Shown: positions 1,376 through 49,540 of the stretch, piece after piece | How positions within the stretch are numbered: the stretch's first letter is position 1 | How the letters are laid out: the number at the start of each line of letters is the position of its first letter | From: Bacteroidales bacterium | GTDB lineage: Bacteria > Bacteroidota > Bacteroidia > Bacteroidales > F082 | Direction: 5' to 3' | Assembly (NCBI GenBank): GCA_029933225.1 | Contig: JAOZOO010000008.1 | Coordinates: 1-51,266 of the forward strand | Length of the DNA stretch: 51,266 nucleotides | The notes under the pieces: generated by a model | What the model was told of the DNA's origin: nothing | Databases searched by the model: none | What the model saw: only the letters and a program-made list of their open reading frames with translations | Made by a program: the position numbers and the translations under genes

Positions 1376-2104
1376 TCAGGTGTAAAGCCCGCCGTTTACA
1401 TGAATTACTTCACCATTGATGTAAGAAGCACCTTTTGAAGCAAGGAAGCCGACAACTTCAGCCACTTCTTCGGGTGTGCCGAAACGGTTGGCAGGGATCA
1501 GCTTTTTCAGTTCTTTTTCATTCAGGTCACGGGTCATCTCGGTTCGGATATAACCGGGAGCCACTGCATTTACCGTGACTTTTTTCCTGCCGACTTCCTG
1601 TGCCAGGGCTTTCGTGGCGCCGATCACACCGGCTTTGGCTGCCGAATAGTTTGTCTGGCCCGGTAATCCCTTTATGCCTGACAGCGAAACTATATTAATG
1701 ACCCTGCCAAATTTATTCACTACCATATCCTCAAGCAGAGGGGTGGTAACATTGTAAAAGCTGTTCAGGTTAGCGTCGATAACCCCCGACCATTCGTGAG
1801 GTTTCATCCAGACCATCAGCACATCTTTGGAATAACCGGCATTGTTGACAAGCACGGAAATGTATTCATTTTCATGATTCGATTTCCATTGCTGCAGTGC
1901 CGCTTTTACCGCTTCATGATCCGTAACATCAAATTGAATGATCTCTCCGTTTCCTCCCTGTTCCCGGATGGCTGACAAAGTATTTTCAGCCGCTTCTTTG
2001 TTTGAACGGTAATGCACCAGCACATGGTAGCCCATTTGTGAAAGTTTCAGGCAAATGGCGCTGCCAATGCCTCCCGAGCCGCCTGTTACCAATGCAGTAT
2101 TCAT
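1376..2104 (-). CDS. 3-oxoacyl-ACP reductase, FabG-like SDR
   Basis: Short-chain dehydrogenase/reductase of 242 residues. The NAD(P)-binding glycine motif TGGSGGIG lies at residues 7-14, NNAG at 87-90, and the active-site Ser140, Tyr153 and Lys157 (YSAAK) are all present. The protein ends VNGGLYT, typical of FabG. Family role: NADPH-dependent reduction of beta-ketoacyl-ACP to beta-hydroxyacyl-ACP. Its ATG overlaps the stop of the ammonia-lyase gene by four bases (ATGA), so the two are probably translationally coupled. Together with the adjacent KAS it supplies condensation and keto-reduction for the pathway. A housekeeping FabG cannot be strictly excluded, but the coupling favours a pathway-specific one. 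Confidence 0.9.
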   Translation of the reverse strand: MNTALVTGGSGGIGSAICLKLSQMGYHVLVHYRSNKEAAENTLSAIREQGGNGEIIQFDVTDHEAVKAALQQWKSNHENEYISVLVNNAGYSKDVLMVWMKPHEWSGVIDANLNSFYNVTTPLLEDMVVNKFGRVINIVSLSGIKGLPGQTNYSAAKAGVIGATKALAQEVGRKKVTVNAVAPGYIRTEMTRDLNEKELKKLIPANRFGTPEEVAEVVGFLASKGASYINGEVIHVNGGLYT

Positions 2105-3648
2105 TTGTTTGAAACGATTTCAGGGTTGTTGGAAAGAAGGAATTCCTTGATCTTTTTCAAATCCCTGTATTTGGGTGTGTCTTCCCTGAAGACCGGGACA
2201 AGTTCCCGCAACCGGGAATAAATATCTTTTGTGCGCCCGGCCAGCTTCTCCGCATCTTTCAGGTAATCCACCGCCTGGATAATAGCGAGAAATTCCACTG
2301 CCAGCACCTCGAAAGTATTCTCAATCACCTTCTTTGTCATCAGTGCGGCATTGGTGCCCATGCTTACGATATCCTGATTGTCGTTGTTGTTGGGGATGCT
2401 GTGCACATACATGGGGTTTGACAGGGTCTGGTTTTCGGCCACCGTAGAAGTGGCTGTGAATTGTGTGCCTTGCAGACCGAGGTTCAGACCCAGGGTTCCC
2501 AGGTTGACAAAGGGTTGCAAAACTTCGTTCAGTTTGTTGTTCATCAGGAAATTGATTTGCCTTTCAGCCAGCATGCTCAGTTTGGTGACGGCAATTTTTA
2601 GTTTGTCCATTTCGAAAGAAACATAATCGCCGTGGAAATTGCCTCCGTGGTAAACGGTTTTGGTTTTAACATCCACCACCGGATTGTCATTCACCGAGTT
2701 GACCTCGTTGACCAACACATTTTCGGCACTGTTAATGGCGTCAAATACAGGACCCAGCACCTGCGGGACACATCGCAATGAATAGTATTCCTGTATTTTC
2801 TGCTTGAATATTTTCTCTTCAATTTTACCGTTGTAGAGGTGGTCGCCTCTTTTCTCAATCAGTTTGCTGTCGGTCAGTATGTTACGCATGGCACCGGCAA
2901 TCACCTGTTGCCCGTTATGCATTTTGGTGGAGTTCAGCTCTTTTGAAAAATGGTCGTCGAACGACTGAACGATCTCGTTGATCATCGAGGAAGCCACCAC
3001 CGACCAGTTAATGAGTTGCACGGCCCTGATGATGTTGATGATGCCGATTCCCGACATGACCGATGTGCCGTTGATCAGCCCCAGACCTTCACGCAGGTAA
3101 ACCTTCAGCGGCCGGATGTTCAGCTTTTCAAAAACGGTTTTTGTGGGTTGTCTCTTGCCTTCGTAAAACACTTCGCCCTCACCGATCAGCACCAGCGCAA
3201 TGTGTGAGAGTTGTACCAGGTCACCGCTGGCGCCCACACCTCCGTGTTCTGGAATGATCGGGATAATGTCTTTATTGATGAGTATGGAAAGTAATTTTAT
3301 GGCATCGGGATGAATACCGGAATAGCCCAGCGACAAACTTTTCAGCCGGCTGATCATGGCTGCTTTTACATACAGTGGCTCAAGCGGTTTACCACATCCG
3401 GAGGTATGACTTCTGATCAGATTGTATTGCAGTTGCACCTGGTCTTCGGATTCAATGCGATACTGCGCCATCGGTCCCAGCCCTGTGTTAACACCGTAGA
3501 TCACTTTATTCACCGAGAAGTCCTTGAGAAAAGCATAGCATTTTTCAACTATTTCCAGTGTGGAGTCTGTTATTTCAATTTGTTGGCTTTTGAAAAGGAT
3601 GTCGTAATAATCTGACAGCGCCAATCGATCTCCCGAAATTTTAACCAT
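2101..3648 (-). CDS. tyrosine (aromatic amino acid) ammonia-lyase
   Basis: Member of the HAL/TAL/PAL family, 515 residues. The MIO cofactor triad Ala140-Ser141-Gly142 sits in GGVGASGDLVQLSH, and the Tyr51 loop YGVNTGLGPM and LINGTSVMSG are intact. The selectivity-loop segment NLIRSHTSG and the tail motif SIPNNNDNQDIVSMG closely match, from memory, the flavobacterial tyrosine ammonia-lyase from flexirubin-producing Flavobacterium. Predicted reaction: L-tyrosine to 4-coumarate plus ammonia, giving an aryl starter. The Ser-His pair at 80-81 is also the classical histidine-lyase pair, so HutH activity is the alternative, but no other hut gene is present. I chose ATG at 3648; an in-frame TTG at 3672 would overlap the promoter-like motif. 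First gene of its set. Confidence 0.85.
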   Translation of the reverse strand: MVKISGDRLALSDYYDILFKSQQIEITDSTLEIVEKCYAFLKDFSVNKVIYGVNTGLGPMAQYRIESEDQVQLQYNLIRSHTSGCGKPLEPLYVKAAMISRLKSLSLGYSGIHPDAIKLLSILINKDIIPIIPEHGGVGASGDLVQLSHIALVLIGEGEVFYEGKRQPTKTVFEKLNIRPLKVYLREGLGLINGTSVMSGIGIINIIRAVQLINWSVVASSMINEIVQSFDDHFSKELNSTKMHNGQQVIAGAMRNILTDSKLIEKRGDHLYNGKIEEKIFKQKIQEYYSLRCVPQVLGPVFDAINSAENVLVNEVNSVNDNPVVDVKTKTVYHGGNFHGDYVSFEMDKLKIAVTKLSMLAERQINFLMNNKLNEVLQPFVNLGTLGLNLGLQGTQFTATSTVAENQTLSNPMYVHSIPNNNDNQDIVSMGTNAALMTKKVIENTFEVLAVEFLAIIQAVDYLKDAEKLAGRTKDIYSRLRELVPVFREDTPKYRDLKKIKEFLLSNNPEIVSNK

Positions 3649-3669
3649 CCCCGTTTTAGTTTTAATGTG

Positions 3670-3677
3670 CAAATGTA
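3670..3677 (-). promoter_or_regulatory. putative -7 box upstream of ammonia-lyase gene
   Basis: The minus strand reads TACATTTG, matching the Bacteroidota -7 consensus TAnnTTTG. It ends 21 bases before the chosen ATG at 3648, leaving a short leader. No convincing -33 TTTG was found at the usual spacing, so this rests on one motif. It would separate this three-gene set from the upstream acyltransferase gene. Confidence 0.4.
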
Positions 3678-27125: not shown

Positions 27126-29171
27126 TTAATAAATTACCATTACGGTTCCTCTTTTTATTACCGTGGTTTTGTCGGAATTGCGGTAAGAAAGTTTATAAAC
27201 ATAAACACCTTGCGACACGGCAGACCCTTTGTATTTTCCGTCCCAGCCTTCTTGCGGGTCATAAGTTTCAAAAATAAGCTGTCCCCAGCGATTGAATATC
27301 TGGAATAAATATTCCGAACCGCTGAAGAAACGGAAAACCGGTTTGAACTCCGGTGTAATCCCGCCGGGTTTAAAGGCATTGGGGACGAACATTTCCGTTT
27401 CCGGCGCTGCGCCGATGCGGTTGGAACGGGCTTCTTCGGTGTAGCCGTATTCATCTCCGTCATCTTCCACGGCCTGCACCCAGTAAACGGGTTGTGTTTC
27501 CGAGTCGGGCAGGGAAGAAATATCATCTGTGTATTCAAGCGTTTGTGAGTCCACCGAATCAATGGGCCCGGTGGGTTCAACATCGCCGGTCATTCTGAAA
27601 ATATAATACTGTTTCACACCTCCGCCCCATCCCTCAAAGGCATTCCATTGCAGATAGTTATGTTCTGGATCCACATTCCCTCCCGTCAGATAGATGGTTT
27701 TCAGCAGGTTCGATCCCAGTGCCTCGCGGCCGCAACTGTCCAGCACTTTCAGGTCGTATTCGTAATAGCCAAGGTAAGCATCTGCCGAAGTATCGGTGAA
27801 TGTCATGGGCAGTACAACCGGTTTGGTGATATTTATTGTTTCTATCAGTGCAGAGTTCCCCCCGTTCGGTTCACTCCTGAAAACCTGTACCGAACTTTTT
27901 TCCGGTAAGGTATCCACAGCGAAGGTTAACTCTACATCATAGTCTGGCAGCACGTCGGCATTGGCAAGGTAAACATAATCCGGTTTGCGGTAGCCGGATG
28001 CTGTGATTGATTTCCGGCATGATGAGGATGTGCCGGATGCATAGAAAGCCTGTATGTAATAATCGTATTGTGAACCTCCAATCAGATTTTCGTGGACAAA
28101 TACCGTGTCTCCGGGTCCTGTTTGCCCGATTATTTCATAAGGTTGTCCGTTAAGTGAGCTAAAGATTTTGTAACCCTCCAGATTTGGCATAGCATTGATG
28201 TATTGTGACCAGGTCAGGGTGTTGGTTTCTTCGCATTTGTTGTAAAGAATATTGTTGAGCAGGATGGTCTTCCGGGGTTTCAGGAAAGTTCCGGGGCTCT
28301 TGTTTTCACAACTGTCCATGGTGGCGATGGCATAGGAGACAGGCCCGGAACATGGAGAAGAAAGCGTATCAATGTAATATGTTGAATCCCTGCCCCCTAT
28401 CCGGTCTGTTTCAATCCATGTCCCGTTTTCATTCCGGTAAATGATGTATCCCGCGGCATCCTCACTGGTGGATGGTTCCCAGCCCAACACTGCATTTTCG
28501 TCCGTGTTGATACTCACCGAGTCGAACACCGGTTTTTCAGGATATTCTGTGTCTTTGAATGTAGCTCCCTGAACATTAGAAACCGAGCTGCAGCTAATGG
28601 TATTTTTCAATTCAATCCGGTAGCTAATGGAGTCGTGGCATACGATTTCAGGTTTGCTGTAAAAAAAAATGTCATTTGGAACCGAATCGATGAGCTGCCA
28701 GTTGCCCGGGGGCGTTTCCCTGTAAATCAGAAACCAGTCTGATGAACCGTCAGGCAACGGGTCATGCAGGGTATTCCAGTACAGGTCGGCCTGGTTGTAA
28801 TCGGGAACGTTGTTGTCTAATTGCAGAAAGATAGTTTGCAAAGTATCTGACAAAGCGTTTCCTTCGTCAAAGTTTGCCCGGATATAATAATACCGGCTGG
28901 TCAGACCGGCTTCTGCCGTAGCATGAAAATACTGGGTTGTTGCAGCATCATTAATTGTTGCTATCCTGGTGAAACTGCTTCCGTTACCGGAATAATAGAG
29001 TTCGTAATTGATAAAGCCCGTCATATCTGTAGGTGCTGTCCATGTGATTGTCACTGCACCGTTGGCATCAACAGCAAGGCATCTCATATCTGCTGGTTGC
29101 TGGGCGACTACTCCGCTTGCTGATAGCAGTAAAATGAGAAAGAAAACCGATATATATCTTATAATAAACAA
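27126..29171 (-). CDS. secreted multi-FN3 protein with T9SS type B (CHU_C) sorting domain
   Basis: Protein of 681 residues with a signal peptide (YISVFFLILLLSASGVVAQ) and TTG start at 29171, the only available start. The body consists of repeated fibronectin III-like modules (VTITWTAPTDMTGFINYELYYSG, YYYIRANFD and similar patterns through about residue 590) with several cysteines. The last 85 residues form the gliding-motility-associated C-terminal domain: PNAFKPGG, then LFQIFNRWGQLIFE, GWDGKYKG and GVYVYKLSYRN. That marks it as a T9SS substrate anchored or released at the surface. Specific function unknown; adhesin-like role possible. Convergent with the upstream barrel gene. Confidence 0.88.
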   Translation of the reverse strand: MFIIRYISVFFLILLLSASGVVAQQPADMRCLAVDANGAVTITWTAPTDMTGFINYELYYSGNGSSFTRIATINDAATTQYFHATAEAGLTSRYYYIRANFDEGNALSDTLQTIFLQLDNNVPDYNQADLYWNTLHDPLPDGSSDWFLIYRETPPGNWQLIDSVPNDIFFYSKPEIVCHDSISYRIELKNTISCSSVSNVQGATFKDTEYPEKPVFDSVSINTDENAVLGWEPSTSEDAAGYIIYRNENGTWIETDRIGGRDSTYYIDTLSSPCSGPVSYAIATMDSCENKSPGTFLKPRKTILLNNILYNKCEETNTLTWSQYINAMPNLEGYKIFSSLNGQPYEIIGQTGPGDTVFVHENLIGGSQYDYYIQAFYASGTSSSCRKSITASGYRKPDYVYLANADVLPDYDVELTFAVDTLPEKSSVQVFRSEPNGGNSALIETINITKPVVLPMTFTDTSADAYLGYYEYDLKVLDSCGREALGSNLLKTIYLTGGNVDPEHNYLQWNAFEGWGGGVKQYYIFRMTGDVEPTGPIDSVDSQTLEYTDDISSLPDSETQPVYWVQAVEDDGDEYGYTEEARSNRIGAAPETEMFVPNAFKPGGITPEFKPVFRFFSGSEYLFQIFNRWGQLIFETYDPQEGWDGKYKGSAVSQGVYVYKLSYRNSDKTTVIKRGTVMVIY

Positions 29172-37362: not shown

Positions 37363-38853
37363 TTACTTTCCTCCCGGTATGGGGCTGCCCACCCGTATCA
37401 TGGCACAACGGAATCCCACAGTCGCCGAGGCGTCGTTTTCATCGAGGAACCTTCTGACTCCCGGGCTGAGGAAATACGGAGTATCTTTCCACGAGCCTCC
37501 TTTAACCACCCTGGAATGGTCAGTGATCAGCGATGTTACGCCATATTCGTACATCATGTTTGTGCTGTTTGCCGTGTTATCCTGGTTGGTCCAGTCAGCC
37601 TGAACCTGGATGGTGGATTCGTAATCGCCGTCACGATAGTTGATGTTGTTGGCCTTACGGTAATTTCTCCGTTTGGCAGCTTCTTCGGGCGAAACTTCAC
37701 TATATTGCAGGCGGCCCAGTGAATCTTTTTCGGCAATGCTGCCTTCCATGTCTTTCTTGATGTTTTTGAAAACATTACCCCGGTAAGGGTTAAGATCTGA
37801 AACATACTGGTAAGTCATGGGCCTGTAAACGTCAAGTACCCATTCGCTGACATTTCCCGCCATATTATAGAGGCCGTAATCGTTCGGCCAGTATGAACCA
37901 ACCGGAGCAGGTATGGCGGCGCCATCGTTCAGGTTACCGGCAACACCCATGTAATCTCCTTCGTTTCTCTTGAAGTTAGTCACAAAACTGCCGTAATATT
38001 TTCTCTCGTCCGTGCGAATGGTCTGTCCGTTCCAGGGATACTGACGTCTTTCGACAACCCTGTTGTAAAGGGTGTTGCCAATAAGTCCCAGCGCTGCATA
38101 TTCCCATTCGGCTTCGGTAGGCAGGCGGTAGTTGGGCAGCAAAATGCCGTCTTCAAATCTCACGTTTCTCACACCTGTACCTTTGGGGTTCAGGTCTTCT
38201 TTGCCTTCATTGACCAGACCTTCATATTGTCCGGCAAGATAGGCTTCGGTATTAAAATTATTTTCATTTTTCTGATCCGGGTCAAAATCCAGAATGCCTG
38301 CCTGGATCAAAAGATTTTCATTTACCCGGTCGGTACGCCATGAAGCATAATCGTTGGCCTGAACCCACGAAACGCCCACAACGGGATAAAACTGATAAGA
38401 AGGATGCCTGAAATAAGTCTGAACCAGCGGTTCATTGTATGCCAGACGGTCACGCCAAACCAGCGTATCGGGGAGCGCATTCTGCACAACGCCGGGATAG
38501 TCCTCGCCATAAACACGGTTCAACCAGAAGATATATTCCCTGTAATCCAGGTTGCTGACTTCGGTTTGATCCATGTAAAAGCTTGTGACGGTAACCTGCC
38601 TGGGCTGGTTATCCCAAACGTAAAACGGTGTTTCTTCCGTTGCACCCATAGTATAAGTTCCCCCTTCAATCAAAACAAGGCCGGGACCTGTGATCTGCTC
38701 GTGAACCTGTGCAACTTCAAAACCGCCGTTTTCAGGATTATTGTATTCCCATCCGGTCGTCCTCGATCTTTCATGGCTTTTACAGGATGAGGCTAATATC
38801 GCAATGCTTGCCACTGCAAGTAAAGCGAATACTAACTTTCTGAATCTAAACAT
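37363..38853 (-). CDS. gldJ: GldJ-like T9SS/gliding lipoprotein with FGE-sulfatase fold
   Basis: Lipoprotein of 496 residues; lipobox LASSC with Cys24. The mature start RTTGWEYNNPENGGFEV is characteristic of GldJ. The rest is a formylglycine-generating-enzyme/SUMF1-type domain: LIEGGTYTMG, VSWVQANDYASWR, LPTEAEWEYAALG, GNVSEWVLD and VVKGGSWKDTPYFLSPGVRRF. GldJ and GldK-type proteins build or stabilise the T9SS ring and gliding machinery at the outer membrane. Position beside murF and the porU-porV genes supports GldJ over GldK, which would sit with gldLMN. Transcribed after the porP-like gene, 38 bases apart. Confidence 0.87.
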   Translation of the reverse strand: MFRFRKLVFALLAVASIAILASSCKSHERSRTTGWEYNNPENGGFEVAQVHEQITGPGLVLIEGGTYTMGATEETPFYVWDNQPRQVTVTSFYMDQTEVSNLDYREYIFWLNRVYGEDYPGVVQNALPDTLVWRDRLAYNEPLVQTYFRHPSYQFYPVVGVSWVQANDYASWRTDRVNENLLIQAGILDFDPDQKNENNFNTEAYLAGQYEGLVNEGKEDLNPKGTGVRNVRFEDGILLPNYRLPTEAEWEYAALGLIGNTLYNRVVERRQYPWNGQTIRTDERKYYGSFVTNFKRNEGDYMGVAGNLNDGAAIPAPVGSYWPNDYGLYNMAGNVSEWVLDVYRPMTYQYVSDLNPYRGNVFKNIKKDMEGSIAEKDSLGRLQYSEVSPEEAAKRRNYRKANNINYRDGDYESTIQVQADWTNQDNTANSTNMMYEYGVTSLITDHSRVVKGGSWKDTPYFLSPGVRRFLDENDASATVGFRCAMIRVGSPIPGGK

Positions 38854-38891: not shown

Positions 38892-39902
38892 CTAAAAGCT
38901 GGGCGATTTTATTGCCCTGATACGCATTCTTTTTTCTTGTTTGTACAAACAGAAGCTCCAGGCAAATGAAATTTCATGGGCTCCGCCGGAAGAACCTCCG
39001 ATATTGGAAATTGTGAAATCGTAACTGTAACCGATCTTTATGTTGTTGAACTGAAGCCCGACCATGGCAATGAAAGCATCAGGATTGCTGAAGTTATGCC
39101 TGAACCAGGCACCGACAACCAAAATGCTTTTGCTGAAATACAATCCGGCATTTAACTGTTGAAAATTTTCCTGCTGCATATACATTAATTGTGGCGCCAG
39201 AACAAAGTCGTCGATACTTGTGTTACCCAGTCCGCCTTCTGATAAATTAATATTTATACCTCCGTGTACGGTAAAACGCATAGGAAGTTTTGATTCGCCG
39301 TTATTATAAAACGAAAGATTCGGCTGGGTGAGGTGATGTGCGGCGATGCCGACAAACCATTTATCGTAGTAAGCCATGATGGCTCCCGCTGAAAAGTCGA
39401 ACACAGAAACCCGTTCATTTTCAGGCGGTTTCTCCTGTGAACTCGGATCCACATTTCCCGTTGTCGGGTCTATCTGATCGGCAAAGATCAGCTTGTTCCA
39501 GTCCAGCTTTTCCATGTAATATTTTCCTTCCACACCAAAGCTGATCATGATGGATTCACTAACTTTCAGCTTGTAGGAATAAAATAACGAAATGGCATTC
39601 CTGATCAGTGCCCCGCTGCCCTGGCGGTCACTCATCGCCAGCAACCCTACTCCACTGTTGATTTTCGGAATGGACATATCGTAACTGGCATTGTAAGTGA
39701 TGTAAGCTTTTGAAAGCGCAGGCCACTGATTCCGGTAATTTAAAATTACCCTGCCACACCGGGTGTTTCCCGCCAGTGCCGGATTGAGGTATAATGGATT
39801 GGCATAAAACTGCGAAAACTGTGGATCCTGGGCACTTGAACTTGCCCATATTCCTGCCAGCAGCAGAATTAAAACGATCCGTAATGACTTGCGATTTAAC
39901 AC
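38892..39902 (-). CDS. PorP/SprF-family outer-membrane protein
   Basis: Beta-barrel-type protein of 336 residues. From GTG 39902 the signal peptide is ideal (RIVLILLLAGIWASSSAQ); an earlier TTG at 39932 would add ten residues. The mature start DPQFSQFYANPLYLNPALAG is the PorP/SprF family signature, and the strands include IMISFGVEGKYYMEKLDWNK and FNNIKIGYSYDFTISN. These proteins act in T9SS function, often as partners for specific cargo or anchors for the PorE/GldJ-type components. Same strand as gldJ; divergent from the porU genes across 188 bases. Confidence 0.88.
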   Translation of the reverse strand: MLNRKSLRIVLILLLAGIWASSSAQDPQFSQFYANPLYLNPALAGNTRCGRVILNYRNQWPALSKAYITYNASYDMSIPKINSGVGLLAMSDRQGSGALIRNAISLFYSYKLKVSESIMISFGVEGKYYMEKLDWNKLIFADQIDPTTGNVDPSSQEKPPENERVSVFDFSAGAIMAYYDKWFVGIAAHHLTQPNLSFYNNGESKLPMRFTVHGGININLSEGGLGNTSIDDFVLAPQLMYMQQENFQQLNAGLYFSKSILVVGAWFRHNFSNPDAFIAMVGLQFNNIKIGYSYDFTISNIGGSSGGAHEISFAWSFCLYKQEKRMRIRAIKSPSF

Positions 39903-40090
39903 TTTTTCAGGGATGTTATTTTGCGGGTACAATTATACGACAAATTTTATTGCCTGTTAAAAATGAGTTAAATTTTTATTTGCATGGATAACCTTCTTTT
40001 CTTTGCAAAATATTAAAGCAACTCTCACGTTATAAACTTTGTCAAATTCTATATAGATTCTCAATTGTAAAGACAACAAAAAATTGATTG

Positions 40091-43000
40091 ATGTTGCATA
40101 AAAAATTTATTTTCTCATTTTTTCTCCTCGCTTTCTGGATGAGTGGTTTTGCCATTGGTTATCAGTTTCAGGAAAAGATTTCATGGACTAAAAATGAAGA
40201 AGTTACGAATTATAAAAATGAACCTTTCCTGCGGATGGTATTCGATGGGGGTGTGTACCATGAACTGAATCCTGTTCCGTATTTTGTAAAAATGTATGCC
40301 ATACATACTTCCGATGCTTTGCTTACGGTAAAGCTGATGAATACCAAAACCGTCCCGCTGACACCTGAAGAAACAGAGATCATCAGGGAACAATCCATAC
40401 AGGATACTTCATTTTTGAGCACCGTATCCATGAGTTTTATCCGAAAATCGCCTTATGCCAAAGTGAAAATATTTCCGGTAAGATGGAATGACAGGGAAAA
40501 GGTTTACGAAAAACTGCTGACGTTTGATATTGAAATAGAGGTTGAAGACATTGAAACTCCGCAAACGACAGGTGTGCTTACCAAATCCAGTTCGGTGCTG
40601 GCTACGGGTGACTGGTTTAAAGTGAAAATCGACCAAAGCGGTATTTTCAAAATTACCTATCAGGAGTTGCAGGAAATGGGATTCAATGTTTCGGGAAATC
40701 CCCGGAATATTGCCGTTTACGGTAATGGTGGCGGCATACTCCCTGAAAAGAATGATGACTTTTGGTATGATGACCTGGTGGAAAATCCCATTGTCGTCGT
40801 TGGCGAAAGTGATGGAAAATTTGACCCTTCCGACTACATCTTATTTTATGGTGAGGGCCCGGTACTGTGGAAATACAATAAACTGTCGAACGCCTTTTTC
40901 CATCAGAACAATTATTATGATGATTATTCCTGTTATTTCATCACACTGAAAACGAGCCCGGGTAAACGGATTACGGAAGCACCCGAACCCGGTGGCCCGG
41001 TCGATTTTGAAGTCGATGATTTTCTGGATTACGATTATCACGAACAGGATCTCGTAAACATTGCGGGAACGGGAAGAACGTGGTATGGTGAATTGTTCGA
41101 TTTCAATTCCACTTATGATTTTACTTTTAACTTTCCCAATATCATCAGTGGCAAAGAAGCGCATTTCAGTGCAGACTTTGCATCCGTTTCTTCCACACCC
41201 AGCCAGTTTTTGATCTATGTCAACGGACAGCTTCAAAAAACCCTGCCCATGCCGGTGATTCCGGTGAACAGCCCTTATCAGAAAGGAAAAGAAAAAGACA
41301 CACAGTTTCCGTTTTTTGCAGGCCAGGATAAGCTTAACGTAAAACTCGTCTATCAGAGGAATTCCGGCAATGCTTCGTCGTATTTGAATTTTATAGAGAT
41401 CAATGTTCCGCGTCAGCTTAAAATGGCCGGCGATCAGATGATGTTCCGCAAACCTTTGAGTGAAGTGGGTAAAGTGAGATATACCCTGGGCAATGCCGGT
41501 AACGGTGTGACAATCTGGGATATCACGGTCCCGGTCAATGCCCGTAAAATAAAAACACAGACGTCAGGAAACAGCCTGATCTTTTCTGCATCTTCCGACA
41601 GCCTGCGCCAGTTTATTGCTTTCACAGGCGATGAGTATTACACGACGACCATTGTCGGAAAAGTGGGAAATCAAAACCTGCATGCCGTAAAGAACATTGA
41701 CTATCTTATTGTGACGCATCCCGATTTTATGGAGCAGGCCCGGCGCCTGGCTTTGTTTCATTCCGAAGAGGGCATGTCGGTTTATGTAACCACACCACAG
41801 AAAATTTACAATGAGTTTTCCTCCGGTTCCCAGGATGTTTCGGCCATACGCAATTTTGCCAAACATCTGTACGAAAACAGTGATGCCGGAAAAGAGCTTA
41901 AATACCTGCTCCTTTTTGGCGATGCGTCTTATGATTATAAGGATATAATGGAGGCCAATACAAATTATGTCCCCTGCTGGGAGTCGGTGAATTCGCTGAA
42001 TATTGTATGGTCGGTGGCTTCGGACGACTATTTTGGTTACCTCGACGACGGCGAGGGGGTTTCAGATGACGATAACGTGGACATCGGTATCGGAAGATTT
42101 GTTGTGATCAGTCCCGAAGAAGCCAAAACGGCAGTTGACAAGGTGGTACATTACGGAACCAACACAAAAAAAGTGATGGGACCCTGGAGGAACATCGTTA
42201 CTTTTCTTGCGGACGACGGCGATAACAATATACACCTGAAACATGCCGAAACCATAGCCAATTACATCGAATCAAATGATCCGGTTTATAATATTGAAAA
42301 AATATATGTGGATGCCTATCAGCAGATATCTACTCCTTCGGGACAACGGGCGCCGAGTGTGAACAAAGCCATAACCGACCGTATTGAAAAAGGAACGTTG
42401 ATCTTTAACTACAGTGGTCATGGCGGTGAAATAGGGCTCGGCCATGAACAGTTTCTTCAGATAGCTGACATTCAGTCGTGGGAGAACTACGACAAATTAC
42501 CCATTTTTATTACCGCCACCTGTGAGTTCAGCCGTTTTGACGACCCCACAAGGATATCGGCAGGGGAGATCACTTTTCTGAGTGACCACGGCGGGGCCAT
42601 AGCCATGTTTTCCACCTCACGGGCCACTTTTGCCAGTGCAAACCTGGCGCTGAACATGGCGATCTTCAAGGATAACATTTTCACAAAAATTGACGGGGAA
42701 GATCCCTGTTTCGGTGATGTGATCAGGCGATCCAAAGTGCTGGGCGGCGACAATGACAAAAAATTCGTCTTGCTGGGCGATCCTGCTTTGAAGCTGGCTT
42801 ACACCAAATACCGCGTTGAAACGACAAAAATAAATCACGAGGTGAGCAATGAAGAAGAGCCCGACACGTTAAGGGCGCTTTCAAAAGTAAGGGTCGAGGG
42901 GATCATCACCGATCAGCAGGGCAACCTGGTGGATTTTTATAACGGGATGCTTTACCCTTTGGTTTACGATAAATATTCGGAGATCAGGACGCTGGGTGAT

Positions 43001-43888
43001 GACAATCCGGTTTATACTTTTTATGTGCGGAAAAATATATTGTTCAATGGCAAAGCCACTGTCCGAAACGGACAGTTTGATTTTGAATTCATTGTGCCCA
43101 AAGACATTGCCTATAAATTTGGTGAGGGACGTATCAGTTATTACACAAACAACGATTCCATTGACGGCTCCGGCTATTATGAAGGAGTGATCATCGGCGG
43201 GTATGATGAAACGGCCATGGAAGATGTAACAGGACCTGAAATCAGGTTGTTTATGAATGACACCACTTTCAACTCCGGTGACATTACCGATCAGAACCCG
43301 GTTTTGCTTGCCAGGGTGTGGGACGAAAGCGGGATCAACACCACCGGAAACGGAATTGGCCACGACATCATTGCCACCCTCGATGGCGATGATACACAAA
43401 CTTTTACGCTGAACCAGTTTTATGCAGCCGACGAAAACAGTTACAACAGTGGCCGCATAACCTATCCGTTTAAAGGTCTTAATCCGGGAAAACATACGCT
43501 TTCGCTGAAAGTGTGGGATATTTACAACAATTCTTCAACGGCGCAACTGGAATTTGTCGTGACACCATCCGAAAATGTCATTATTGATAATCTGATGAAT
43601 TATCCCAATCCGTTTTCGACCTTCACAAATTTCGTTTTCGATCATAACCAGTCGGGGCAGGAACTGAGCGTGAAAATAAATATCTATACCCTGGCAGGAG
43701 CCCTTGTCACGACATTAGAAACAACATTTACACCGGAGGGCTACAGGTCACCGCCACTCAGGTGGAATGCCACAACCGGAACAGGCGATATCATCAGCCG
43801 GGGATTTTATCTCTACCAGGTGATCGTCAGAAATCAAAATGGCTCCACAGCCGAAAAACACGGGAAAATGGTTTTTACCCGTAAATAG
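40091..43888 (+). CDS. porU: T9SS C-terminal signal peptidase PorU, first of two tandem copies
   Basis: Protein of 1265 residues from ATG 40091 (a TTG lies one codon earlier). Signal peptide KFIFSFFLLAFWMSGFAIG. The C25 (gingipain-like) peptidase domain spans about 540-900 with LLFGDASYDYK, catalytic His777 in YSGHGGE and Cys811 in ITATCEFSRFDD. The tail contains a sorting-domain-like module (NYPNPFSTFTNFVFDH, then GFYLYQVIVRN). PorU removes the T9SS C-terminal signal and attaches cargo to anionic LPS. The downstream gene is a full-length paralogue, 42 bases away. Which copy is the main sortase cannot be told from sequence. Confidence 0.9.
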   Translation: MLHKKFIFSFFLLAFWMSGFAIGYQFQEKISWTKNEEVTNYKNEPFLRMVFDGGVYHELNPVPYFVKMYAIHTSDALLTVKLMNTKTVPLTPEETEIIREQSIQDTSFLSTVSMSFIRKSPYAKVKIFPVRWNDREKVYEKLLTFDIEIEVEDIETPQTTGVLTKSSSVLATGDWFKVKIDQSGIFKITYQELQEMGFNVSGNPRNIAVYGNGGGILPEKNDDFWYDDLVENPIVVVGESDGKFDPSDYILFYGEGPVLWKYNKLSNAFFHQNNYYDDYSCYFITLKTSPGKRITEAPEPGGPVDFEVDDFLDYDYHEQDLVNIAGTGRTWYGELFDFNSTYDFTFNFPNIISGKEAHFSADFASVSSTPSQFLIYVNGQLQKTLPMPVIPVNSPYQKGKEKDTQFPFFAGQDKLNVKLVYQRNSGNASSYLNFIEINVPRQLKMAGDQMMFRKPLSEVGKVRYTLGNAGNGVTIWDITVPVNARKIKTQTSGNSLIFSASSDSLRQFIAFTGDEYYTTTIVGKVGNQNLHAVKNIDYLIVTHPDFMEQARRLALFHSEEGMSVYVTTPQKIYNEFSSGSQDVSAIRNFAKHLYENSDAGKELKYLLLFGDASYDYKDIMEANTNYVPCWESVNSLNIVWSVASDDYFGYLDDGEGVSDDDNVDIGIGRFVVISPEEAKTAVDKVVHYGTNTKKVMGPWRNIVTFLADDGDNNIHLKHAETIANYIESNDPVYNIEKIYVDAYQQISTPSGQRAPSVNKAITDRIEKGTLIFNYSGHGGEIGLGHEQFLQIADIQSWENYDKLPIFITATCEFSRFDDPTRISAGEITFLSDHGGAIAMFSTSRATFASANLALNMAIFKDNIFTKIDGEDPCFGDVIRRSKVLGGDNDKKFVLLGDPALKLAYTKYRVETTKINHEVSNEEEPDTLRALSKVRVEGIITDQQGNLVDFYNGMLYPLVYDKYSEIRTLGDDNPVYTFYVRKNILFNGKATVRNGQFDFEFIVPKDIAYKFGEGRISYYTNNDSIDGSGYYEGVIIGGYDETAMEDVTGPEIRLFMNDTTFNSGDITDQNPVLLARVWDESGINTTGNGIGHDIIATLDGDDTQTFTLNQFYAADENSYNSGRITYPFKGLNPGKHTLSLKVWDIYNNSSTAQLEFVVTPSENVIIDNLMNYPNPFSTFTNFVFDHNQSGQELSVKINIYTLAGALVTTLETTFTPEGYRSPPLRWNATTGTGDIISRGFYLYQVIVRNQNGSTAEKHGKMVFTRK

Positions 43889-43930
43889 TACAGGGAGAAG
43901 CAAATTATTCTGAACTTTGCACAACAGAAA

Positions 43931-46900
43931 ATGAAGCGATTTATACTTTTGATAGGATTTATTGTTCCGTTGATCCTAACGGGACAAACTGTTGTGCCGG
44001 TCAGCCTGAACTGGTCGGAATTGGAATCCGTACCCTCTTCAGTAACCGGAGGGAGCATCAATTATTATTCTTTTGACGGATCAACCAATGTGATGGATTT
44101 TGGCGCTTTGCCTGTGTTCAGTTACGAGGCTGCCCTGCCTGCCGATTATTTTCATTGTCAGATAGAATATAAAGTGACTGATGCCGACACTTTGTCTTAT
44201 GAGGAAACGGAACAACTAACAGATAATGACCTGCTTGCCGATAGCGTATCTTATTTCGTGGAATATCACGGGCCAAAAGCGCTGGTCTATCTGATACCCA
44301 TGTATAAAATAAAAGATGATATCGGGGAACGTGTTGTACGCCTGAAAAAGTTCCGGCTTTTCATCGATTTTATCCCTTATGAGCCGGAAGAAAAAAAATC
44401 AACGGCTGCCGTGGAATATGCCACTTCCTCGGTATTGAGTTCGGGAACCTGGTTCAAAATGGGAATCGTCAAAACAGGTGTTTACAAGCTGACTTACGAT
44501 GACCTGATTGAAATGGGAGTTGATCCCTCACAGCTTGATCCTGCAAAGATTGGCATTTATGGTAATTATAACGGTCTGTTACCCGAAGCCAACGAAAAAC
44601 CGGCACCCGATGATCTGGATGAAAATTCCATTTTTATTAAAGGTGAATCTGACGGAAAATTCAACAAAGAAGATTACATCCTGTTTTATGCCAATGCGGC
44701 CCTGACCTGGAGGTACAATATCTTCACAGGACGCTTTGATCATACCACAAATATATATGCCGACACGGTTTACTATTTTTTTACACCTGACAGGGGAACG
44801 GGAAAACGGATTGTCAAAGAGGAAAACCTGTCGATAGAGCCCACGGTAACTGTCAATTCATTCATTGATTACGGGTTGCATGAAGAAGAACTGGAGAACC
44901 TGTTGAAATCAGGAAAAGAATGGTTTGGCGAACGATTTACCGGTGATACCACGGAACGCTCCTTCTCGTTTGAGTTTCCCAATATCAGAAAAGACCGTCC
45001 TGTTTATTTACATTTTCAAATGGCAGGCAGAAACTTTGTGGAGTCTTATTTTGATGTCTTTGCGGGGAATAAACGTGTTCTGGATTCTGTCGTACTCAAC
45101 AGGGTCAGCCCTTCCAGCGCCAATTATGCCATTTTGCAAAAGCGAAAAACCACATTTCTGACCAATGATGAAAAGATCGTTATCAAAGTAAAGTATTATT
45201 CTGACGACCCCAACTCAATTGCCTGGCTGAACTTCATCGAGCTAAATGCCGAAAGAGAACTTATTTTCAGCGGAGGACAGATGGGATTCAGGGATCCTCA
45301 TGCTTCGGCATCAGGTAACATTGCCCGGTTCAATGTGCGGGGAAACATACAGAATGCCAGTGTTTGGGATGTTTCTGATATTCATAATCCCAAAGAAGCG
45401 GAATTTGACATCCATGCCGATACCCTCTGTTTTACGCAACATGCCGACGAATTGAAAGATTTCATCATTTTTGACGGTTCGGAATTTTACACGCCGGTGG
45501 AATATGTGCCCGTTCCGAATCAGAATCTGCATGGTATCAGCTCGGTAAATCTGGTGATCATCAGCCCGGAGATGCTTTTGCCCCAGGCACAGAAGATTGC
45601 CGAACTGCACAGGGAAAACGACGGCCTTCAATACGTTATTGTGACTCCCGGACAGGTTTATAATGAGTTTTCTTCAGGTTCGCAGGACATCTCGGCCATC
45701 CGTAATTTTATGCGAATGCTTTGGAAAAGGGATGCTTTTGACAGCAGCCCCGGCTATTTGTTTTTGTTCGGAGATGCTTCATTTGATTATAAATACAGGG
45801 TGCCGGAAAATACGAACCTGGTACCGACGTATGAGTCGGAAAACTCTTTGCGCGAAACCCAGTCTTTCGTAACGGATGATTATTTCGGCTTGCTGGATGA
45901 TGATGAGGGCGCTGCTTCCTCGGGCGACCTCGATATTGGCATCGGAAGGTTCCCGGTTTCTTCTCCCGAACAGGCCGCTACCGTTGTAAATAAGATAGAA
46001 CATTACATGTCGAAAGATCTTTCGGTGATGAGAGACTGGCGGACAAAGCTGTGTTTTGTTGCCGATGACGGAGATAAAAACCTGCACCTCAAACAGGCCA
46101 AAAACCTGATCAGCATTGCCGATACACTTCATCCCGGAATTAATATCAACAAAATATTTTCGGATGCCTTCCCCAAAGTAAAGATACCGGGAGGAGAACG
46201 CTTTCCGGAGGTGAACAAGCAGATCAACAAGCAGGTGGAGTCCGGTTCCCTGATCATGAACTACACAGGGCATGGCGGGCTGATCGGCTGGTCGAACGAA
46301 TTGATCCTCGACGTGCCCACCATCCGTTCTTACGACAACATTGACAATTTACCGCTGTTCATCACGGCCACCTGTGAGTTCAGCCGTTTTGACAATCCCG
46401 AGTTCGTTTCTGCCGGCGAATATGTTATCCTGAATGAAAAGGGCGGAGGCATCGGACTGCTGACGACAACCCGTCTGGCGTATGCCCATGCCAATATTCA
46501 GGTCAACATGCGGGTTTATAAAAATCTGCTCACCCGCGAAGACGGCGAAAGGCCTCGGTTGGGAGACATCGTCAGAATGTCGAAAATACCGTCGAACAAG
46601 AATTTCCTCAACTTCGTGCTGCTTGGCGACCCCGCCCTCCGGCTCGCCTATCCGCACTATGATATTACGACCACTTCGCTGACAAACAAATCCACAGGTG
46701 GAGTTGCCGATACGGTAAGTGCATTATCAAAGGTAAGTGTCAGCGGTGAAGTGATTGATGAATCGGGAAACAGGGTTGAGCATTTTAACGGGTACATTTA
46801 CCCCAAGGTTTATGACAAACCCAGTGTGTACATGACGCTCGGAACGGACGACGGCAGTATTCCCGCTGAATTTACGCTGTCGGACAAAATACTTTACAGC

Positions 46901-47746
46901 GGGGTAATTTCCGTTAAAAACGGGAAGTTCGACTTTACCTTTATGGTTCCGCGTGATATTTCTTACAATTACGGTTTTGGAAAGATCAGCTATTATGCAG
47001 TGGACACCGTCAAATTCATTGATGCCTGGGGCGCTTATGATGACCTCCTCATTGGCGGTTATGACGATAGTGCGGAAAATGACGGGGAAGGCCCGGAGAT
47101 CGACCTTTATCTGAACGACAAAAGCTTTGAATCCGGCGACATTGTTTCTTCCCATCCCAGGTTGTTTGCCGAAATACGTGACGAGCAGGGAATCAATTTT
47201 ACCGGCCATAGCCTTGGACGGGACATTACGCTCGTAATAGATGGAGATCAGGCCAATACACTGGTGATGAATGATTATTTTAAACTGGATGTTGACACTT
47301 ATAAAAGCGGGAGCCTCACTTATCAGCTTAATTCATTGCCCAGGGGCTGGCATAGTGTAACCCTGAAAGCCTGGGATCTTGAAAACAATTCATCTGAAAA
47401 AGCAATCGAGTTTTATGTGGACGAGTCTGCCAATATCACTTTGATGCATGTCATGAATTATCCCAACCCCTTTCAGGACGAAACACATTTCAGTTTTACG
47501 CACAATAAAAACGGTGAAATCCTTGAGGTAAATATCGACATTTTTGATATCAATGGCCGGTTCATCCGCAACCTGTACCAAAAAACAAATCCCGAATCAG
47601 TCCGCTCAGTCGTAATAACCTGGGACGGAACAAATTATAATGGAAGCATCATCCCGGCGGGCATTTATTTTTATACGATGACGGTTACCGACATTTATGG
47701 TAACGAAACCGTTCAATATCAAAAAATGATGAAAATGACTAACTGA
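43931..47746 (+). CDS. porU: T9SS C-terminal signal peptidase PorU, second tandem copy
   Basis: Protein of 1271 residues with signal peptide MKRFILLIGFIVPLILTGQ. Domain order matches the first copy throughout: N-terminal module with SSVLSSGTWFKMGIVKTGVYKLTYDDL, C25 domain with LFLFGDASFDYK, His781 in YTGHGGL and Cys815 in ITATCEFSRFDN, and a C-terminal NYPNPFQDETHFSFTH / GIYFYTMTVTD module. His-Cys spacing (34) is identical in both copies. It is adjacent to porV, the usual neighbour and partner, so it may be the ancestral copy. Both look catalytically intact. Confidence 0.9.
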   Translation: MKRFILLIGFIVPLILTGQTVVPVSLNWSELESVPSSVTGGSINYYSFDGSTNVMDFGALPVFSYEAALPADYFHCQIEYKVTDADTLSYEETEQLTDNDLLADSVSYFVEYHGPKALVYLIPMYKIKDDIGERVVRLKKFRLFIDFIPYEPEEKKSTAAVEYATSSVLSSGTWFKMGIVKTGVYKLTYDDLIEMGVDPSQLDPAKIGIYGNYNGLLPEANEKPAPDDLDENSIFIKGESDGKFNKEDYILFYANAALTWRYNIFTGRFDHTTNIYADTVYYFFTPDRGTGKRIVKEENLSIEPTVTVNSFIDYGLHEEELENLLKSGKEWFGERFTGDTTERSFSFEFPNIRKDRPVYLHFQMAGRNFVESYFDVFAGNKRVLDSVVLNRVSPSSANYAILQKRKTTFLTNDEKIVIKVKYYSDDPNSIAWLNFIELNAERELIFSGGQMGFRDPHASASGNIARFNVRGNIQNASVWDVSDIHNPKEAEFDIHADTLCFTQHADELKDFIIFDGSEFYTPVEYVPVPNQNLHGISSVNLVIISPEMLLPQAQKIAELHRENDGLQYVIVTPGQVYNEFSSGSQDISAIRNFMRMLWKRDAFDSSPGYLFLFGDASFDYKYRVPENTNLVPTYESENSLRETQSFVTDDYFGLLDDDEGAASSGDLDIGIGRFPVSSPEQAATVVNKIEHYMSKDLSVMRDWRTKLCFVADDGDKNLHLKQAKNLISIADTLHPGININKIFSDAFPKVKIPGGERFPEVNKQINKQVESGSLIMNYTGHGGLIGWSNELILDVPTIRSYDNIDNLPLFITATCEFSRFDNPEFVSAGEYVILNEKGGGIGLLTTTRLAYAHANIQVNMRVYKNLLTREDGERPRLGDIVRMSKIPSNKNFLNFVLLGDPALRLAYPHYDITTTSLTNKSTGGVADTVSALSKVSVSGEVIDESGNRVEHFNGYIYPKVYDKPSVYMTLGTDDGSIPAEFTLSDKILYSGVISVKNGKFDFTFMVPRDISYNYGFGKISYYAVDTVKFIDAWGAYDDLLIGGYDDSAENDGEGPEIDLYLNDKSFESGDIVSSHPRLFAEIRDEQGINFTGHSLGRDITLVIDGDQANTLVMNDYFKLDVDTYKSGSLTYQLNSLPRGWHSVTLKAWDLENNSSEKAIEFYVDESANITLMHVMNYPNPFQDETHFSFTHNKNGEILEVNIDIFDINGRFIRNLYQKTNPESVRSVVITWDGTNYNGSIIPAGIYFYTMTVTDIYGNETVQYQKMMKMTN

Positions 47747-47813: not shown

Positions 47814-49049
47814 ATGAAATTTAAAATTCTGTTGATTGGGGCGTTGGCCTCTGTTTTTTTTACGGCTAATGCTCAAAATTATAATAATCTGAATGGACAG
47901 GCCAGCGGAGTAAATGTGATTACCACGGCTGTTCCTTTTTTGATGATTGGACCTGATGCCCGTGCGGGCGGTATGGGTGACGGCGGCGTAGCTTCATCAG
48001 CCGATGCCAACTCGATGCACTGGAATCCTGCCAAATATGTGTTTTCAGAAAACAAACAGGGATTTGCAATCTCTTATACCCCCTGGCTGAGAAACCTGGT
48101 CAATGATATCAACCTGGCTTATGTTTCGTATTACAACAAGCTCGACCGGATGAATGCCATTGCATTCACCATGCGGTATTTTTCGCTCGGTGAGATTCAG
48201 TTTACCGATCAGAACGGACAAAGTCTTGGTTATTTTAAACCCAATGAGTTTGCTTTGGATGCGACTTATTCGCGTTTGCTGACCGATAATCTTTCACTCG
48301 CAGTTGCCGGACGGTTTATCTATTCAAACCTGACTGCAGGACAAACTGTTCAGGGCGTTGAAACAACAGCCGGTATTTCAGTAGGAGCTGATATTGCTTT
48401 GTACTGGGAAAAGGATGTGGACTGGTTTAAAAACATGGATGCACAATTTGCCTGGGGTGTTAATATCTCTAACATCGGCAACAAGATGTCCTATACAAAG
48501 TCGAATATCGAACGGGACTTTATTCCTACCAACCTTCGGATTGGTCCCCGACTGACACTCGACCTCGACGATTATAATTCACTTTCATTCCAGGTGGACA
48601 TCAACAAACTGCTTGTGCCCACACCTCCGATCTATTGTACCGATTCTGCCGGAAACCCCATTCCTGACCCGGGCAATAACAATAAAAACCAGATTTGCGC
48701 CGGAAGGGATCCTGATGTAGGTGTAATCGCAGGTATGATACAATCATGGTATGATGCTCCCGGCGGATTCTCGGAAGAGCTTCGTGAATTTAGTTTAGCA
48801 GTGGGTGTTGAATACTGGTATAATAACCTGTTTTCTGTCAGGGCCGGTTATTTCTGGGAAGACAAGACAAAAGGTGCCCGTCAGTATGTTACGCTCGGCG
48901 TTGGCCTGAGGTATAATGTTTTCGGGCTGGATTTTTCTTACCTGATACCGACATCCGGTGTGCAGAATCCGTTACAGAATACCTTACGGTTCAGTCTGCT
49001 GTTTAATTTCGGCAAGCCGAAAACCACAAGTGTTACACCTGCGGGCTAA
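47814..49049 (+). CDS. porV: T9SS outer-membrane protein PorV (LptO)
   Basis: Barrel protein of 411 residues of the FadL-like PorV family. Signal peptide KILLIGALASVFFTANAQ. The mature N-terminus carries the family signature TTAVPFLMIGPDARAGGMGDGGVASSADANSMHWNPAKYVF. Later strands include LSLAVAGRFIYSNL and FSVRAGYFWEDKTKGARQYVTLGVGLRYN. PorV shuttles T9SS cargo from the translocon to PorU and is part of the attachment complex. Its stop overlaps the ispF start by one base (TAATG). Confidence 0.95.
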   Translation: MKFKILLIGALASVFFTANAQNYNNLNGQASGVNVITTAVPFLMIGPDARAGGMGDGGVASSADANSMHWNPAKYVFSENKQGFAISYTPWLRNLVNDINLAYVSYYNKLDRMNAIAFTMRYFSLGEIQFTDQNGQSLGYFKPNEFALDATYSRLLTDNLSLAVAGRFIYSNLTAGQTVQGVETTAGISVGADIALYWEKDVDWFKNMDAQFAWGVNISNIGNKMSYTKSNIERDFIPTNLRIGPRLTLDLDDYNSLSFQVDINKLLVPTPPIYCTDSAGNPIPDPGNNNKNQICAGRDPDVGVIAGMIQSWYDAPGGFSEELREFSLAVGVEYWYNNLFSVRAGYFWEDKTKGARQYVTLGVGLRYNVFGLDFSYLIPTSGVQNPLQNTLRFSLLFNFGKPKTTSVTPAG

Positions 49050-49540
49050 TGATCGGTTTTAAAGTCGGTTTCGGATACGATGTTCACCGTTTTGCTGAAA
49101 ACCGCCCGCTGATCCTCGGCGGAGTTACCATTCCCCATTCACAGGGCCTGCTTGGCCATTCCGATGCGGACGTGCTGCTGCATGCCATTGCCGATGCTTT
49201 GCTCGGCGCCGCCAATCTGGGAGATATCGGTTTGTTCTTCCCGGATGACGATCCCGCATTTAAAGATATGGACAGCTCCGTGATGCTTTCGGAAGTGGTG
49301 GAAATGATAGAGATAAACGGTTATCGTGTGGGTAACCTGGACGCTACCCTCGTTTTGCAGTCGCCGAAGATTGGTGCATATATCCCCCGGATGAAAAAGA
49401 AAATTGCCGGTTTATTGAAAGTGGAAGAATCCGATGTTTCCATTAAAGCCAAAACTTCCGAGCGGCTGGGCTTCGTGGGACGCGAAGAAGGTGTTTCCGC
49501 TTTTGCCACAGTCTTGATCTTCAGAGAAGAAGCAACCTGA
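49049..49540 (+). CDS. ispF: 2-C-methyl-D-erythritol 2,4-cyclodiphosphate synthase
   Basis: MEP-pathway enzyme of 163 residues. Metal-binding GYDVHRF near the N-terminus, LGHSDADVLLHAIADALLGAANLGDIG and the C-terminal TSERLGFVGREEGVSA are all conserved. It cyclises CDP-methylerythritol 2-phosphate to MEcPP for isoprenoid synthesis. Start codon shares a base with the porV stop; this porV-ispF coupling also means isoprenoid supply could vary with T9SS expression. Confidence 0.96.
   Translation: MIGFKVGFGYDVHRFAENRPLILGGVTIPHSQGLLGHSDADVLLHAIADALLGAANLGDIGLFFPDDDPAFKDMDSSVMLSEVVEMIEINGYRVGNLDATLVLQSPKIGAYIPRMKKKIAGLLKVEESDVSIKAKTSERLGFVGREEGVSAFATVLIFREEAT

Follow-up and report, generated by a model that had tools for sequence, protein, structure and literature searches.

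A conserved tandem of two full-length PorU sortase genes beside porV in a Bacteroidales family

Analysis of a 51,266-nucleotide stretch of Bacteroidales DNA (the window; contig C159 of a 3.68 Mb genome, G000, assembled in 361 contigs and 92% complete) and of its relatives identifies two genes for PorU, the C-terminal domain (CTD) signal peptidase/sortase of the type IX secretion system (T9SS), arranged in tandem upstream of porV. Judged from comparative sequence evidence, this tandem is a genuine, ancient and conserved variation on an established component; any function of its second protein, PorUb, is putative. The first-pass annotation had described a tandem of full-length porU genes of 1265 and 1271 codons, and both open reading frames were found, separated by 42 bp and free of internal stops (Table 1). 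A gldJ-like gene and a porP/sprF-family gene on the reverse strand precede porUa, porUb and porV on the forward strand, and porV is followed by an ORF (49049-49540) whose translation reads as what we take to be ispF. The porUa start is the ATG at 40091, with a TTG one codon upstream at 40088.

Table 1. Features of the tandem porU locus, in window coordinates.
Feature	Position	Strand	Evidence
gldJ-like lipoprotein gene	37363..38853	-	TIGR03524, 436 bits, slightly below cut-off 458
porP/sprF-family gene	38892..39932	-	TIGR03519, 256 bits
porUa, full-length T9SS CTD signal peptidase/sortase, 1265 aa	40091..43888	+	NF033707, 1346 bits
PorUa catalytic His777	42419..42421	+	aligns with PorU/gingipain His; invariant in 68/68 PorUa
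PorUa catalytic Cys811	42521..42523	+	invariant in 68/68 PorUa
PorUa Arg844, corresponding to Arg722 of P. gingivalis	42620..42622	+	conserved without exception among the aligned active PorU
PorUa C-terminal sorting domain (PorU-type, long)	43583..43885	+	NF033707 to position 1094/1095; type A tail match weak, 20 bits, below cut-off 23
porUb, second full-length PorU, 1271 aa	43931..47746	+	NF033707, 1275 bits
PorUb catalytic His781	46271..46273	+	invariant in 49/49 PorUb
PorUb catalytic Cys815	46373..46375	+	invariant in 49/49 PorUb
PorUb Arg848	46472..46474	+	invariant in 49/49 PorUb
PorUb C-terminal sorting domain (PorU-type, long)	47441..47743	+	TIGR04183, 28.5 bits, above cut-off 23
porV, outer-membrane shuttle/anchor, predicted to be common to both PorU	47814..49049	+	NF033710, 509 bits

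By every sequence measure applied, both window genes encode true, full-length PorU. Their scores against the NCBIfam PorU model (NF033707) are approximately three times its cut-off of 420 bits and cover model positions 1-1094 (PorUa) and 1-1093 (PorUb) of 1095, and the two proteins share 40% identity across 1230 aligned residues (855 bits). The solved structure of P. gingivalis PorU (6za2) matches PorUa with 500 bits (1.2e-148) and PorUb with 490 bits (1.4e-145), from around residue 163 to the C-terminal end in both, and this close relation already gives their predicted fold. The C25 domain spans residues 538-902 of PorUa (2e-104) and is recovered with similar significance in PorUb (3e-103). 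Each protein thus combines a full-length model match with the catalytic dyad, the conserved Arg and a sorting domain of its own, at a locus that adjoins porV. P. gingivalis PorU (PG0026) is alike in its domain order, C25 domain, Cys/His dyad, Arg, sorting domain and adjacency to porV, but P. gingivalis has one PorU where the window has two paralogues, its dyad spacing is 33 rather than 34 residues, and the window proteins carry a stretch of about 160 N-terminal residues ahead of the part matching 6za2. Conservation is lowest across these first 160 residues, with a mean identity of 15% between the two copies within one genome, and the 'long form' model NF052318 scores 36.5 bits against PorUa, just below its cut-off of 40.

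Two related C25 proteins were considered and rejected as identities for these genes. PorU2 (NF052324), a putative second T9SS sortase, is matched only partially, with 174.7 bits for PorUa and 159.4 bits for PorUb against a cut-off of 450. Gingipain R (RgpB; 1cvr, 4ief) shares the catalytic fold and the dyad, but is without the conserved PorU Arg and is a secreted cargo protease outside the attachment complex; a gingipain-like, non-sortase protease is discarded for the window genes on the basis of the Arg and of the N-terminal, Ig-like and all other PorU domains, present in both copies. The first-pass annotation had also allowed that the first copy might belong to a C25 family unrelated to sorting, or show pseudogene-like decay in sister strains. 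The former is excluded by the NF033707 score and by the trees described below, PorUa being the PorU that is never lost, and PorUa is undecayed in those relatives.

The His and Cys residues of both copies align with those of P. gingivalis PorU and gingipain R, and the identical dyad spacing claimed for the two genes was confirmed, with 34 residues in each (H777/C811 and H781/C815). The distance from Cys to Arg is likewise the same, at 33 residues (R844 and R848); an Arg located 32 residues past the Cys, Arg722, has been described in PorU and is missing from gingipains (Gorasia et al., PMC4560394). Dyad and Arg are intact in all 68 PorUa and all 49 PorUb aligned from the window's GTDB family, ruling out that one of the tandem copies is catalytically dead, a condition that applies only to an unlinked third homologue discussed below.

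The porUa-porUb-porV arrangement is nearly fixed in this family. Tandem porU genes were seen at more than 40 loci, with porV 3' of porUb at nearly every one for which downstream sequence is available, and the recurrence of the same layout across the family excludes a chance arrangement. The gldJ-like gene is a conserved neighbour even in lineages without porP and porUb. In several genomes porUa and porUb abut or overlap by a few bases, which is consistent with joint expression, and a public near relative ('Chlorobiota bacterium isolate M_MetaBat.24') is 83% identical. Beyond the family, two adjacent PorU genes occur in 14 of the 79 PorU-bearing genomes of the order (one genome per genus), and in three genomes besides the window's in the class sample. 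The notion of a single porU adjoining porV in known loci stands for most Bacteroidia sampled, but tandem porU is also found in other families of the order and, rarely, outside it. The literature searched, with incomplete open-access coverage, contained no report of tandem active PorU, which is weak evidence of novelty.

Since the family genomes are mostly fragmented MAGs, an assembly duplication or an incipient pseudogene might produce a second copy. In genus g14, moreover, PorUb can be N-terminally shortened and fast-evolving, and in an uncultured flavobacterial Crocinitomix MAG (L046:3905-14590) three shorter PorU-matching ORFs lie between a full PorU and porV, so that the second copy looks fragmented. 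The chance that the tandem is such an artefact or decaying duplicate is nonetheless close to nil, given 40% identity between the copies, the number of tandem loci, the invariant PorUb dyad and the uninterrupted window genes; for the window itself, identity, dyad and synteny, together with the topology test reported next, refute it.

Phylogenetic inference on 110 proteins resolved the family's PorUa (support 99) and PorUb (support 100) as two distinct clades; in other families, the second copies mostly fall near PorUb. Each of the two formed one supported group in two trees, the PorUa group taking in the single copies of genus g2 and of genome G018. A topology constrained to unite the family's PorUa and PorUb was rejected (AU test, p=0.0013), and with it a recent, local or family-specific duplication; on this evidence, the PorUa/PorUb split predates the family. 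A single clade for all b copies was tolerated (AU p=0.535). Second copies in families f51, f76 and f83, however, lie near PorUa in one tree, and PorU pairs in other orders are either each other's sisters or placed elsewhere, which makes repeated origins of tandem porU probable. The PorU of Tannerella and P. gingivalis group with those of other families in the window's GTDB order, which points to Bacteroidales as its probable identity.

The two copies differ markedly in their retention. PorUa is present in 109 of 109 family genomes, whereas PorUb is absent from nine of the ten genomes of genus g2 and from 17 of 47 in g14. The sole g2 genome with PorUb (G268) is a doubtful exception, being 6% contaminated and with the gene on a short contig. 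PorUb is also fast-evolving in g4, and a fragmented genome of genus g12 (G238) yielded a single PorU match. Loss is asymmetric, affecting only PorUb, which points to a housekeeping role as CTD peptidase/sortase for PorUa and an accessory one for PorUb. With slightly more confidence than doubt, we favor this reading, in which PorUb is a diverged second enzyme with a different cargo or acceptor.

In P. gingivalis, cargo carried by PorV has its CTD cleaved off by PorU, which transfers the resulting C-terminus to A-LPS or a different amine (PMC4560394, PMC10202324). By analogy with that species, type A CTD cargo would exit the translocon on PorV; the Cys/His dyad of PorU would then cleave off the CTD, and either water or an amine acceptor, for instance LPS at the surface, would receive the new C-terminus. 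In the window's organism, two PorU enzymes would rely on a single set of PorV, PorQ and PorZ, with PorUa acting as the indispensable general CTD peptidase/sortase and PorUb, with an altered active-site rim, taking a cargo subset or another acceptor. We infer catalysis by both proteins, the docking of both on PorV and their differing substrates or acceptors. Two different, apparently working PorU encoded side by side imply that one export machine may have two finishing enzymes. Duplicated T9SS components have a precedent in the GldK/GldJ and GldN/GldO pairs (PMC10202324), which differ in being ring-complex lipoproteins and periplasmic proteins rather than a sortase.

Single orthologues of PorV, PorQ and PorZ were identified in the window's genome, and two PorU would therefore have to share them. 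We considered and rejected an additional PorV reserved for PorUb: the extra barrel of this genome does not reach the cut-off for either PorV or PorQ, and G018, a genome without PorUb, encodes a similar one. This PorV-family barrel (L188:5761-6822, contig C118) lies beside a large ORF, located upstream, that ends in a PorZ-like/type A sorting domain. Barrel and large protein recur as neighbors in many family genomes, a pairing not seen in g2.

Among the residues that separate the two copies are those directly following the conserved Arg, A845-T846 in PorUa and L849-A850 in PorUb; a third diagnostic column holds K891 and N894, respectively. These three columns separate most a copies from b copies, relatives in other families included, and are eroded in g14, where PorUb mostly carries P-T at the pair. 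Three positions past the catalytic His, a first set of family sequences had E in 28/28 PorUa and L/V/I in 24/24 PorUb, and a larger set had Glu in PorUa, with two exceptions among 68, and Leu/Val/Ile in 48/49 PorUb. In a profile alignment, the A-T/L-A pair falls beside the substrate-binding loop of gingipain R (1cvr), which presumably lines the substrate pocket. The altered active-site rim suggests a different cargo or acceptor preference, and such a preference is, in our judgement, the likeliest of the candidate reasons why both copies have been kept. The a/b-diagnostic columns, though, are not significantly enriched in the catalytic domain (Fisher p=0.34), so specificity-directed divergence is not demonstrable.

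The division of labor proposed in the first-pass annotation is in line with the long co-retention of the two genes and their separate conservation patterns, but the form suggested for it, type A versus type B cargo, finds no support. PorU is dispensable for the secretion of type B proteins in F. johnsoniae, and PG1035 of P. gingivalis retains its CTD (PMC9143113); the idea is weak because type B export is PorU-independent in the species studied. A version of it in which PorUb handles gliding adhesins or proteins exported by the PorP/SprF (type B) route draws on the loci themselves. In g2, and again in g4 and g14, no porP gene lies between gldJ and porUa, and these are the genera in which PorUb is lost or fast-evolving. 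Among the loci fetched from other genera, those extending far enough upstream keep both porP and PorUb. Type B CTDs, too, are fewest in the sampled genomes that lack this porP (1-5 vs 6-18). These patterns, however, amount to about two independent losses, porP occupies the same place beside a single PorU in many genomes of other families, and g2 is low in type A cargo too. The co-absence of porP and PorUb is for these reasons a lead only, and we consider this reading very unlikely.

Returning to an accessory PorUb with its own cargo or acceptor, the main competing explanation is that the two proteins are interchangeable, kept together to process a large cargo load with substrates undivided. 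Across the order, genomes with more than one PorU have a larger repertoire of type A CTD candidates (median 145 vs 79, p=0.0015, uncorrected for phylogeny), and g2, without PorUb, has only 29-51 type A matches. Within g14, however, the number of type A CTDs shows no significant difference with or without PorUb (p=0.21; per Mb, p=0.93). A dependence of copy number on cargo number, suggestive across the order, is hence gone within this genus, and because the g14 counts are unrelated to PorUb presence, a PorUb-requiring cargo set was not identified. Divergence to 40% identity, clade-specific residues and a split older than the family are unlike what is expected of copies kept for dosage, and the copy that goes missing is never PorUa. 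Taken together, redundancy appears unlikely.

The adjacency of the genes also accommodates a mixed PorUa-PorUb pair, with one protein controlling the other. P. gingivalis PorU is reportedly held inactive as a dimer (reviewed in PMC10202324), and the window's genes and their homologs are retained together, adjacent and sometimes overlapping, with both active sites intact. Such a pair cannot be obligatory, because PorUa persists alone in g2 and in much of g14, and we regard a hetero-oligomer as quite unlikely, if less so than the assignment of PorUb to type B cargo.

A third PorU homologue, approximately 980 aa long and unlinked to the tandem, is present in some family genomes. In the window's genome it is found at L088:83-3025 (contig C20), and its relatives (L089-L096 and L125) are patchily distributed. 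All 10 sequences, one of which comes from another family, carry Gly, Ala or Ser in place of the catalytic Cys, while the His is retained in nine and the Arg in eight; the copy of the window's genome ends in a type A sorting domain (29.1 bits, above cut-off). The third homologue thus looks like a secreted, catalytically dead PorU. A broader scenario, speculative and on the whole unlikely to hold, is that of a multi-sortase attachment complex in which two active PorU on shared PorV, PorQ and PorZ would give cargo C-termini different fates, through different acceptors or anchoring versus release, joined in some lineages by the secreted dead homologue as a possible competitor for cargo or acceptor.

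How PorU chooses between anchored and released effectors 'remains to be unravelled' (review PMC10202324). A natural comparison for effector anchoring versus release is offered by organisms that encode both PorU intact and by their close relatives without one of them, and the picture of one porU per T9SS, drawn from P. gingivalis and F. johnsoniae, fails in a large lineage of mostly uncultured organisms.

The window's genome encodes another four C25 peptidase domains (L004-L007; contigs C227, C222 and C343), in large ORFs that are not PorU by score. Elsewhere in the window, positions 27126-29171 encode a 681-aa protein with a C-terminal type B sorting domain (TIGR04131, 33.1 and 36.8 bits, cut-off 35), and flexirubin biosynthesis genes are located at 1376-3672, with matches to flxB (385 bits) and to flxA, a tyrosine ammonia-lyase (853 bits), both above cut-off.
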